Positions 8,453 through 16,221 of a stretch of DNA of 64,000 nt are shown in pieces. Position 1 is the stretch's first letter; each line of letters opens with the position of its first letter. The notes below the pieces were generated by a model. The model did no database searches. It was not told the DNA's origin and saw only the letters and a list, made by a program, of their open reading frames with translations. The position numbers and the translations under genes were made by a program. Source of the stretch: an uncultured Hoeflea sp. (GTDB taxonomy: Bacteria; Pseudomonadota; Alphaproteobacteria; Rhizobiales; Rhizobiaceae); assembly GCF_947501405.1 (NCBI RefSeq), contig NZ_CANMVK010000001.1, positions 744,001-808,000 of the forward strand, given 5' to 3'.

Positions 8453-8567
8453 CTGCATCAAAATTAGGCAAGAATCAGGGGACGTTGCGGCGCTCCGGTG
8501 CGAAGGCACTCCCGGTTTTCGAACGAAAACGCCTGTATTCAGGGCTTTACGGCGGGCATTTTCCAAC

Positions 8568-8583
8568 TGGCAAGCGGCTTGCT
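8568..8583 (+). promoter_or_regulatory. Sigma-54 (-24/-12) promoter of urt operon
   Basis: TGGCAAGCGGCTTGCT: GG-N10-GC spacing exact, 39 bp before the urtA ATG. Confidence 0.75.
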
Positions 8584-13850: not shown

Positions 13851-14546
13851 ATGCTGCGCATTGAAAATCTCACATTGCACTACGGCCAGACCCCGATCCT
13901 CAAAGGCATTTCGCTGAGCGCCGATGTCGGTCAGGTGACGTGTGTGATGGGCACCAACGGGGTGGGCAAGACCAGCCTATTGAAGGCGATCTCCGGGGTG
14001 CATCCGCGCTCGGGGGGCGAGTATCGCCTTGATGGCGAGCCGATCTCGGGCGCGCCGGCCTATCAGCTCGCGGCCAAGGGCGTGGGCTATGTGCCGCAGG
14101 GCCGGGACATATTTCCGCTGCTCACTGTGACCGAGAACCTGGAATCCGGATTTGCCTGCCTGCCGCGCTCCGAGCACCGGATCCCCGATCACATCTATGA
14201 GCTTTTCCCGGTGTTGAAGGATATGCGCAACCGCCGCGGCGGTGATTTGTCCGGCGGCCAGCAACAGCAGCTTTCGATTGCCCGCGCGCTGATCACCCGG
14301 CCCAAACTGTTGCTGCTGGATGAGCCCACGGAAGGCATTCAGCCCAACATCATTCAGCAGATCGGCCAGGTGATCGGCTATTTGAGGGACGAGGGCAAAA
14401 TGGCGATCGTGCTGGTCGAACAGTATTTCGAATTCGCCTATGGGCTGGCCGACCGTTTCTGCGTGCTGGAGCGGGGCGAGGTGAAGATGGCGGGCGACCG
14501 GCAGAGCGTCAGCAAGGACAGCTTGCGCGCCGCGGTCTCGGTCTGA
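13851..14546 (+). CDS. urtE: Urea ABC transporter ATP-binding protein UrtE
   Basis: 'GTNGVGKTSLLKAISG', 'LSGGQQQQLSIARAL', 'LLLDEPTEGIQPNII'. Confidence 0.94.
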   Translation: MLRIENLTLHYGQTPILKGISLSADVGQVTCVMGTNGVGKTSLLKAISGVHPRSGGEYRLDGEPISGAPAYQLAAKGVGYVPQGRDIFPLLTVTENLESGFACLPRSEHRIPDHIYELFPVLKDMRNRRGGDLSGGQQQQLSIARALITRPKLLLLDEPTEGIQPNIIQQIGQVIGYLRDEGKMAIVLVEQYFEFAYGLADRFCVLERGEVKMAGDRQSVSKDSLRAAVSV

Positions 14547-14685
14547 TCGCGCCGCTGATGCGGTGTGCGTGAAGCCTGCCCTGCTGTTGGGCGATTGCCG
14601 CCCGGTTTGGCAGTGGATGCCGCAATCCTGTGCAGCAGGCGATGCCCGCATCGTGGAAACCACCGGCGTCACGGCGTTTTCCAAC

Positions 14686-14701
14686 TGGCACGCAATGTGC
14701 A
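14686..14701 (+). promoter_or_regulatory. Orphan sigma-54 (-24/-12) promoter downstream of urtE
   Basis: TGGCACGCAATGTGCA, exact GG-N10-GC; preceded by TTTTCCAAC as at the urtA promoter (TTTTCCAACTGGCA shared). Confidence 0.65.
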
Positions 14702-14732
14702 TTGGAAAGTTCGGATCCAGAGGGGATCTCAA

Positions 14733-14804
14733 ATGACGCCCGCAAAGGGCGCGAGACATGCCGTCAGGCGGGTATCCTCCCAAGACGTCCCGCCGCGCAC
14801 CTAA
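14733..14804 (+). CDS. Candidate small ORF (23 codons) downstream of orphan sigma-54 promoter
   Basis: ATG ACG CCC GCA AAG ... ACC TAA (MTPAKGARHAVRRVSSQDVPPRT), preceded by AGAGGGGA. Confidence 0.3.
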   Translation: MTPAKGARHAVRRVSSQDVPPRT

Positions 14805-14839
14805 TCCCGCATTGACGGGACGCGGCCCGCCTGACGGCA
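14759..14839 (+). ncRNA. Candidate structured RNA or terminator element: 14-bp perfect inverted repeat with nested 7-bp stem
   Basis: TGCCGTCAGGCGGG (14759-14772) / CCCGCCTGACGGCA (14826-14839), nested CGTCCCG (14786-14792) / CGGGACG (14816-14822). Confidence 0.45.
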
Positions 14840-14841
14840 GC

Positions 14842-15984
14842 TTACTCTCCTGGCCGCAGCGCTGCTTCGCCTTGCCGGGTGTGGCCTCCTGCACTGATCG
14901 CATCGCTGATGGCGCGTGCCTGGGCCCTGCGTTCAGGCAATTTGCGGTCGACCACCCAATCGGTGGCCGCGGCGGCGATCCAGATCGAAAACAGCGTGAC
15001 CCAGGCCGTCAGCGCGAAGATGCTGGCGCCGGTGACGCCTGCGCCCACCGCGCAGCCGCCGGCCAGCATGCCGCCAAAGCCCATCAGTGCTGCGCCGGCC
15101 AGATAGCGGCGCATGGCGTCGCCGCCCTCGAAGCCCTGAAGTTCCAGTTCCCCGGTCAGCCAGGCGGCGAAGAAGGCGCCAATGAAGACCCCCGGCACCA
15201 GGCCAACATCGAAATCGATCATCGAACCGGGCGCTGACAGGAACAGCATCAGCGTGTCGGCCGAGGGGCCGGTGAAGCTTAGCGATTCGAGCTGTACCGG
15301 CTCGAATGCCACACCGGCCATGGCGTTGGTGAACCACCAGGCGAGCGGAATGCAGGCGCCGACGCCAAGCGCGGTGAGCGTCTTCCACACGCCGATCCGG
15401 CGCCACAGGGCCAGGCCGAGGCTCGCGACAAGGGCGAGCCCCACCAGCGGGCCGGCGATCGCGGTGTCGATCCCCGAGAGCGTCAGCAAATCATTGGAGC
15501 CGATGGTGATGGTGGTCAGCGGACTGGCCAGCGCCTCGCGCACCGGAGAGAGAAATCCGTGCAGGCTCGCCTGGGCGACGACTGCGAACACCAGCCCGGA
15601 GAGCAAGGCGCGGAGATTGCCGGTGGCGGACAGCACCAGGAGCCGCGACGAGCAGCCGCGCGCCAGAACCATCCCGATGCCGAACAGCAGCCCGCCGATG
15701 GCGGCGCCAGAGAGGCTTTGCGGGGAGGCGAGCTGGCGCGCTTCACGGGCCATGAACAGGCCTTCACCAGTAAGCAGCATGGTGCCGGCTACGGCCGTGG
15801 AAAAGACAATCAGCCAGATTGCCACCTTGGAGCCGATCTGACCGCGGGAGAATTCGATCGCCGCGGCGCGCAGACAAAACCGGCTCTGCTGCGCAAATGC
15901 GCCAAACAGCGCGCCGATCACCGCGCCGCCCAGAAGCAGGGCCCAGTTGTCGCCGAACCGGTCGGCCAGGAGTTCGAGGTCCAT
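14842..15984 (-). CDS. YeeE/YedE family transporter (thiosulfate/sulfur transport, TsuA/SoxT-like)
   Basis: Start MDLELLADRFGDNWALLLGGAVIGALFGAFAQQSRFCLRAAAIEFSRG; conserved Cys motifs 'RFCLR', 'ARGCSSRLL', 'AGGCAVGAGVTG'. Confidence 0.85.
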   Translation of the reverse strand: MDLELLADRFGDNWALLLGGAVIGALFGAFAQQSRFCLRAAAIEFSRGQIGSKVAIWLIVFSTAVAGTMLLTGEGLFMAREARQLASPQSLSGAAIGGLLFGIGMVLARGCSSRLLVLSATGNLRALLSGLVFAVVAQASLHGFLSPVREALASPLTTITIGSNDLLTLSGIDTAIAGPLVGLALVASLGLALWRRIGVWKTLTALGVGACIPLAWWFTNAMAGVAFEPVQLESLSFTGPSADTLMLFLSAPGSMIDFDVGLVPGVFIGAFFAAWLTGELELQGFEGGDAMRRYLAGAALMGFGGMLAGGCAVGAGVTGASIFALTAWVTLFSIWIAAAATDWVVDRKLPERRAQARAISDAISAGGHTRQGEAALRPGE

Positions 15985-16221
15985 GGTTCCCCCTTGGTCT
16001 GCCAGTTTGCCGGACTGGATCCACTGCGCGCTGGGGCAACGGTGAACGAGATAGGCCAATGGCAAGGCTGGCGGCCGGTCCCCTCCCGCTCCCAGGATTT
16101 GGACACCTTGGGGCCTGGCCGCATTCAGTGTTGCGGATAATCCCGGATTTTTCGGTTGCCGACATTGACCTCAGTCAAGACAAAAGCAAATATTCAAATT
16201 AATCTATGTGGGAGGAAAGAC

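Follow-up and report, generated by a model that had tools for sequence, protein, structure and literature searches.

A conserved sigma-54-type small RNA gene of Rhizobiaceae carries a hairpin complementary to the aSD2 region of AbcR and may act as an AbcR sponge

The window, by which we mean the whole 64 kb stretch of DNA that was analysed, comes from the genome of a marine bacterium of the Rhizobiaceae, and the genomes of the same genus matched in our scans are those of Hoeflea species. Between urtE (13851-14546, + strand) and a convergent gene for a YeeE/YedE-type membrane protein (14842-16065, - strand) it contains a predicted small RNA (sRNA) gene on the + strand, at 14712-14845, whose definition draws on the predicted fold, on orthologues, on a consensus structure and on covariation. 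The predicted start of transcription, at ca. 14712, lies twelve bases past the C of the -12 GC of a sigma-54-type promoter, and the 3' end is placed from the terminal stem and is uncertain, because a T-run does not follow this stem in the window copy. A sequence-only reading of the locus had described an orphan promoter, a 23-codon open reading frame (ORF) and an inverted repeat, and had proposed a nitrogen-regulated small RNA, a micropeptide or a structured 3' element.

The promoter, TGGCACG-CAATG-TGCA (TGGCACGCAATGTGCA; 14686-14701, + strand), has the exact -24/-12 spacing (GG-N10-GC) reported in that reading; compared with TGGCACG-N4-TTGCW, one fixed position deviates and all others agree. 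It is the sole exact match of its pattern in the 64 kb. Taken by itself the site proves little, because matches with up to two mismatches are no more frequent in the window than chance predicts (24 seen, 35 expected); its conservation in relatives, where both the promoter and the 5' hairpin were retained in 13 of 18 genomes of the genus, takes it well beyond chance. The sequence TTTTCCAACTGGCA had also been said to be common to this promoter and to that of urtA. The identity is real (14677-14690 and 8559-8572), but relatives have only AACTGGCACG in common, so that the additional identity is probably due to chance, and duplication of the urtA promoter was ruled out as an origin on the same grounds.

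Two sites of the type TGC-N11-GCA, which is the NtrC motif (PMC10746234), lie further upstream on the + strand, at 14596-14612 (position -116) and at 14618-14634 (TGCCGCAATCCTGTGCA; position -94), with an equivalent at -95 to -106 in 11 of the 12 other Hoeflea copies. Across the family, 63 of 130 copies have a perfect TGC-N11-GCA between -190 and -45, where shuffles predict 4.3; the spacings N9, N10, N12 and N13 gave 9-17 upstream of the same 130 copies. The NifA motif TGT-N10-ACA was enriched far more weakly (8 of 130 copies, 3.9 expected) and was set aside. The sRNA gene is, to judge from these motifs, probably under nitrogen/NtrC control. A sigma-54 site of its own (TGGCAAGCGGCTTGCT, 8568-8583) also precedes urtA, with sequences of the type TGC-N11-GCG upstream that nearly match the NtrC motif, so that the sRNA is probably induced together with urea transport.

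The RNA from 14712 to 14850 has a predicted fold of -65.8 kcal/mol, against -49.1 ± 4.1 in shuffles (z = -4.1), none of 200 shuffles being as good. It starts with a 5' hairpin, GGATCC-AGAGG-GGATCT (14713-14729, + strand), that presents an 11-nt core, UCCAGAGGGGA (14716-14726, + strand), and continues with a second hairpin, CGCCC-GCAAA-GGGCG (14737-14751, + strand), and with a terminator-like stem (14759-14839, + strand). The latter comprises the perfect 14-bp inverted repeat of the sequence-only reading (arms at 14759-14772 and 14826-14839), with its internal 7-bp stem (14786-14792 and 14816-14822), and finishes, as was indicated there, 2 nt short of the convergent YeeE stop (ORF end at 14842). 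The proposal of a structured 3' element was thus right in part, in that the repeat forms the sRNA's terminator-like stem; as a terminator, however, the window copy lacks the T-rich run that usually follows the stem in relatives and that was found in 65 of 100 family copies. Among 12 aligned copies, 94.7% of the structure cells are paired, whereas sliding the partners lowers this to 39-48%, and two-sided changes are seen in 10 pairs (3.6 in shuffles). Six compensatory changes fall on a single pair of the second hairpin in the aligned group. The outer pair of the 5' hairpin also varies by compensation (GC in 92 and AT in 6 of 100 copies), and its three inner pairs are constant, save for U-A to U-G.

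A DNA search of 61 related genomes retrieved matches in same-genus genomes, nearly all of them in the urtE-YeeE interval and one elsewhere in the genome (G009). In these relatives the same promoter stands 13 nt ahead of GATCCAGAGGGGATC, followed by the second hairpin and by a stem that usually leads into a T-rich stretch. When promoter and hairpin were combined in a pattern that permitted 8-18 nt between the two, each of 13 of the 18 genus genomes had a single copy, always with a spacing of 13 nt, and the reversed control had no match in the 18 genomes. A covariance model built on the sRNA, promoter included, matched 203 of 398 Rhizobiaceae genomes and 57 of 108 genera. The combination of promoter and core was found in 139 of the 398 genomes, whereas the reversed control gave about a dozen matches; of the 139, three have the look of chance hits within coding sequence, which leaves 136. 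In all, the promoter and the hairpin next to the transcription start are conserved in about 31 genera and at unrelated loci, for instance upstream of mrp. In Sinorhizobium, Rhizobium and Ciceribacter the sRNA is located upstream of mrp/apbC (L206, L218, L205, L231, L311 and others), with a LuxR-type regulator gene adjoining several of these copies, so that the linkage to urtE is specific to Hoeflea. Some genomes (G266, G427 and G391) contain two core-type copies.

Outside the Rhizobiaceae, matches among 298 genomes across the order look like chance, except for one convincing copy of promoter and core in another family of the order (G510:C56:79942-79984), which might have arrived by horizontal transfer. 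A search of a plasmid collection yielded no match. Because an Rfam search of the window gave just a chance match, the sRNA belongs to no curated family; likewise, the ar15 (AbcR) covariance model, RF02345, had no match up to E = 5 at 14500-15000. The comparisons bear out the suggestion of a nitrogen-regulated small RNA, with a conserved sigma-54 promoter, upstream NtrC-type sites, a covarying structure and usually a terminator, and we regard it as close to certain, from sequence conservation, that the locus carries a stand-alone sRNA gene of nitrogen type that is conserved in the Rhizobiaceae.

Searches of related genomes with the hairpin core, TCCAGAGGGGA, led to another conserved element, in many cases repeated two to four times in tandem, which reads TCCCCTCTGGA on its strand and was identified with Rfam as ar15 (AbcR; RF02345, 74-102 bits). 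The tandem copies are ca. 207-320 bp apart in Hoeflea-group genomes (L024, L025, L029, L046, L047, L056 and L383). The window genome has its own ar15 (L051; G000 C1, ca. 208.6 kb, 97.5 bits). The 11-nt core of the sRNA is the exact complement of UCCCCUCUGGA of AbcR, in the aSD2 region; over 18 Hoeflea-group genomes the 11-mer occurs 45 times, 43 of which are, by inspection, the sRNA or ar15, and two are unrelated. The second targeting motif of AbcR, aSD2, is UUCCCCUC in Sinorhizobium meliloti (PMC8844928), and the corresponding Brucella motif, M2, is GUUCCC (PMC5461406). In ar15, the complement of the 11-mer covers aSD2, the motif that pairs with ribosome-binding sites in the mRNAs of ABC transporters. 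In the AbcR of the window genome, UUCCCCUCU is predicted to be unpaired (probability 0.97-1.0), and the loop AGAGG of the sRNA is predicted to be open; given this and the complementarity to aSD2, the sRNA hairpin resembles, in its sequence and modelled structure, a target site of AbcR. The sequence-only reading had overlooked this 5' hairpin (14713-14729), which, from its complementarity to AbcR, is the putative functional part of the RNA.

Dinucleotide shuffles of the window sRNA reached 11-nt exact complementarity anywhere in AbcR in 4 of 1500 cases, which for a single genome is only suggestive of a match above chance, and the comparative data are stronger. Comparison of 130 model hits with the core gave 107 with 0-2 mismatches (89, 16 and 2, respectively), 23 with 4-6, and none with three. 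Only two kinds of base substitution, TCCGGAGGGGA and TCCAGAGGGGG, were encountered in the core, across at least nine genera; each puts a G in place of an A opposite U, so that pairing with AbcR (G-U) is kept. Likewise, copies with insertions (L065, L087 and L311) still have 9-10 contiguous nt. The firmly independent constraint amounts to some 8 nt, AGAGGGGA, because the constancy of the inner stem may follow in part from pairing with GGGGA; moreover, since the core is SD-like, that it should complement an anti-SD motif over 8 nt is less remarkable than a match of 11 random nucleotides would be. For full-length sRNA and AbcR, the duplex energy was no better than in shuffles, but the calculation ignores intramolecular structure and is therefore uninformative, and exact complementarity was used in its place. 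Every one of the 136 core genomes has ar15, and the core is absent from all 91 genomes that lack ar15, a co-occurrence (Fisher 5e-20) that is confounded by shared ancestry, as close relatives among the genomes are not independent. The AbcR sequence GUUCCCCUCUGGAGG is nearly invariant in the copies examined; this motif hardly varies, and so there is no room for covariation between the two partners. The notion that the core tracks an AbcR subtype, because it was seen with strong-scoring ar15, was dropped, as weak ar15 copies have the same aSD2 stretch.

Besides the core-type copies, the family includes 23 related sigma-54 sRNA copies, here class B (L091-L095, L097, L099, L103, L104, L106, L108, L110, L111, L114, L120, L122, L127, L130, L356, L360, L364, L365 and L367), with the same promoter, hairpin 2 (GCGTCCAAYGAHGGGCGC) and style of terminator, and with a 5' hairpin without the core. 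The aSD2 stretch of AbcR is nevertheless present in nearly all of the class B-group genomes whose weak ar15 matches were examined, a point that counts against the sponge reading. Since both kinds are found together in some genomes (G159, G354 and G393), class B gives the impression of a sigma-54 sRNA in its own right and not of a decayed sponge. The apical loop of the terminator stem, ATCCCGGATGTACGGA, shows strong sequence conservation in many copies of both sRNA types (L067-L081 and Hoeflea copies) and has been lost from the window copy; judging from this conservation, the tip of that hairpin might be a second pairing site.

We propose that, under nitrogen shortage, phosphorylated NtrC bound at 14596-14634 would activate the sigma-54 polymerase at 14686-14701, giving rise to an RNA of ca. 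115-135 nt with a short hairpin at its start. The loop AGAGG and the adjoining GGGGA would imitate the ribosome-binding site of an AbcR target, the loop contacting the single-stranded CCUCU of the AbcR aSD2 and the pairing being able to spread to 11 bp. AbcR would then be occupied, titrated or degraded, and the mRNAs controlled through aSD2, mostly for binding proteins of ABC transporters, would be freed for translation, raising nitrogen uptake alongside the neighbouring urea-transport operon. That the RNA is an NtrC/sigma-54-induced sponge, which would relieve AbcR repression of ABC transporters in nitrogen limitation, is in our judgement the probable reading of the sequence data, if by a modest measure. 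We put at roughly even the chances of the more specific claim that the AbcR family has here its first sponge, in the form of a nitrogen-stress sRNA of about 31 Rhizobiaceae genera that would disable only aSD2, out of two targeting motifs, and so reshape the ABC-transporter regulon selectively with AbcR not switched off.

The alternative that best withstands these data is that of an ordinary trans-acting sRNA, whose G-rich loop would pair with C-rich stretches of mRNAs, the match to AbcR being a by-product of the likeness between SD and anti-SD sequences. The loop is indeed SD-like, mRNAs are the usual targets of sRNAs, and the class B relatives work without the core; yet the complementarity extends three to four nt beyond the SD-like part, the exact 11-mer occurs elsewhere just twice in 18 genomes, and the C-rich motifs of NfeR1 (CCUCCUCCC) and alphaR8 (UUUCCUCCCU) match the loop over only ca. 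4 nt, all of which makes us consider it unlikely, at about one-third of the weight given to a sponge. Pairing being symmetrical, the direction might also be the reverse, with AbcR regulating this RNA, which would itself use hairpin 2 or the loop of the terminator to act on other targets. The retention of hairpin 2 and of the ATCCCGGATGTACGGA loop in class B, without the core, would agree with this, but among core copies these two elements differ greatly from genus to genus, leaving the core hairpin as the sole part of the RNA kept universally, and we find this option improbable.

A remnant or inactive orphan promoter next to a convergent urtE/yeeE terminator, with no regulatory RNA, would explain a stem between convergent genes and the missing T-run of the window copy, but it is very hard to reconcile with a promoter and a start-proximal hairpin kept at unrelated loci in ca. 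31 genera and with the finding that half of the copies have NtrC-type sites. Finally, a sigma-54-controlled micropeptide gene is scarcely credible and was rejected: the 23-codon ORF does lie at 14733-14804 (+ strand), as had been noted, with AGAGGGGA 6 nt ahead of its ATG, but this start codon arose in the window copy (AACGACG in relatives, AATGACG here) and is missing from the 12 other Hoeflea copies (1 of 13 with the window's own), and just 14 of 96 family core copies have a start codon of any kind at this distance that opens 15 or more codons, so that we judge the ORF to be fortuitous.

AbcR sRNAs govern scores of nutrient transporters in alphaproteobacterial plant symbionts and pathogens, and a conserved sponge candidate with its own putatively nitrogen-responsive promoter would be a direct link from nitrogen status to the choice of transporters. 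The most detailed study of AbcR left control by sponges as plausible and still to be looked for (PMC8844928), and we did not find a later report of an AbcR sponge in the open-access literature. Likewise, our search of that literature found no report of pairing between this sRNA and AbcR.

A trans-encoded sRNA that has been detected in S. meliloti, SmelC165, is probably this same RNA. It is ca. 116 nt long (910182-910297, + strand), present in one copy, with a predicted RpoN promoter and conserved through Sinorhizobium and Rhizobium with complete microsynteny, and the papers found report no function, NtrC control or AbcR pairing for it (PMC7143759, PMC3927594). Its size, predicted promoter and distribution agree with those of the family described here, all seven Sinorhizobium-type copies checked are upstream of mrp, and one of them is at 0.897 Mb on the + strand, a position like that of SmelC165; the identification rests on promoter, size, distribution and position. 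One difference is that Agrobacterium tumefaciens is stated to lack relatives of SmelC165 (PMC3927594), whereas we found a core copy in A. tumefaciens B6 (L217). If the sponge proposal is true, it would give a role to an RpoN-type sRNA that has so far gone uncharacterised, and the idea is testable at once in S. meliloti.

Among characterised systems, NfeR1 of S. meliloti (alphar14, NtrBC; PMC10746234) also unites the nitrogen stress response with the control of ABC transporters, but it has anti-SD motifs (CCUCCUCCC) and represses mRNAs, whereas the window sRNA has the opposite, SD-like motif. The GcvB sponge that originates from the mRNA of an ABC transporter (cited in PMC8844928) resembles our proposal in that ABC-transporter mRNAs are freed by titrating a repressor sRNA, although that sponge is an mRNA fragment and the window sRNA has a gene and a promoter to itself. 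The nearest precedent for a sponge is CrfA, a carbon-starvation sRNA of Caulobacter crescentus whose G/A-rich stem-loop inactivates the four sibling alphaR8 sRNAs SisA-D (PMC12559287). In both cases a G/A-rich stem-loop is complementary to a C-rich core that is conserved within a family of multicopy sRNAs; unlike CrfA, which targets alphaR8 in carbon starvation, the window sRNA matches alphaR15 (AbcR) and is associated with sigma-54 and NtrC signals.
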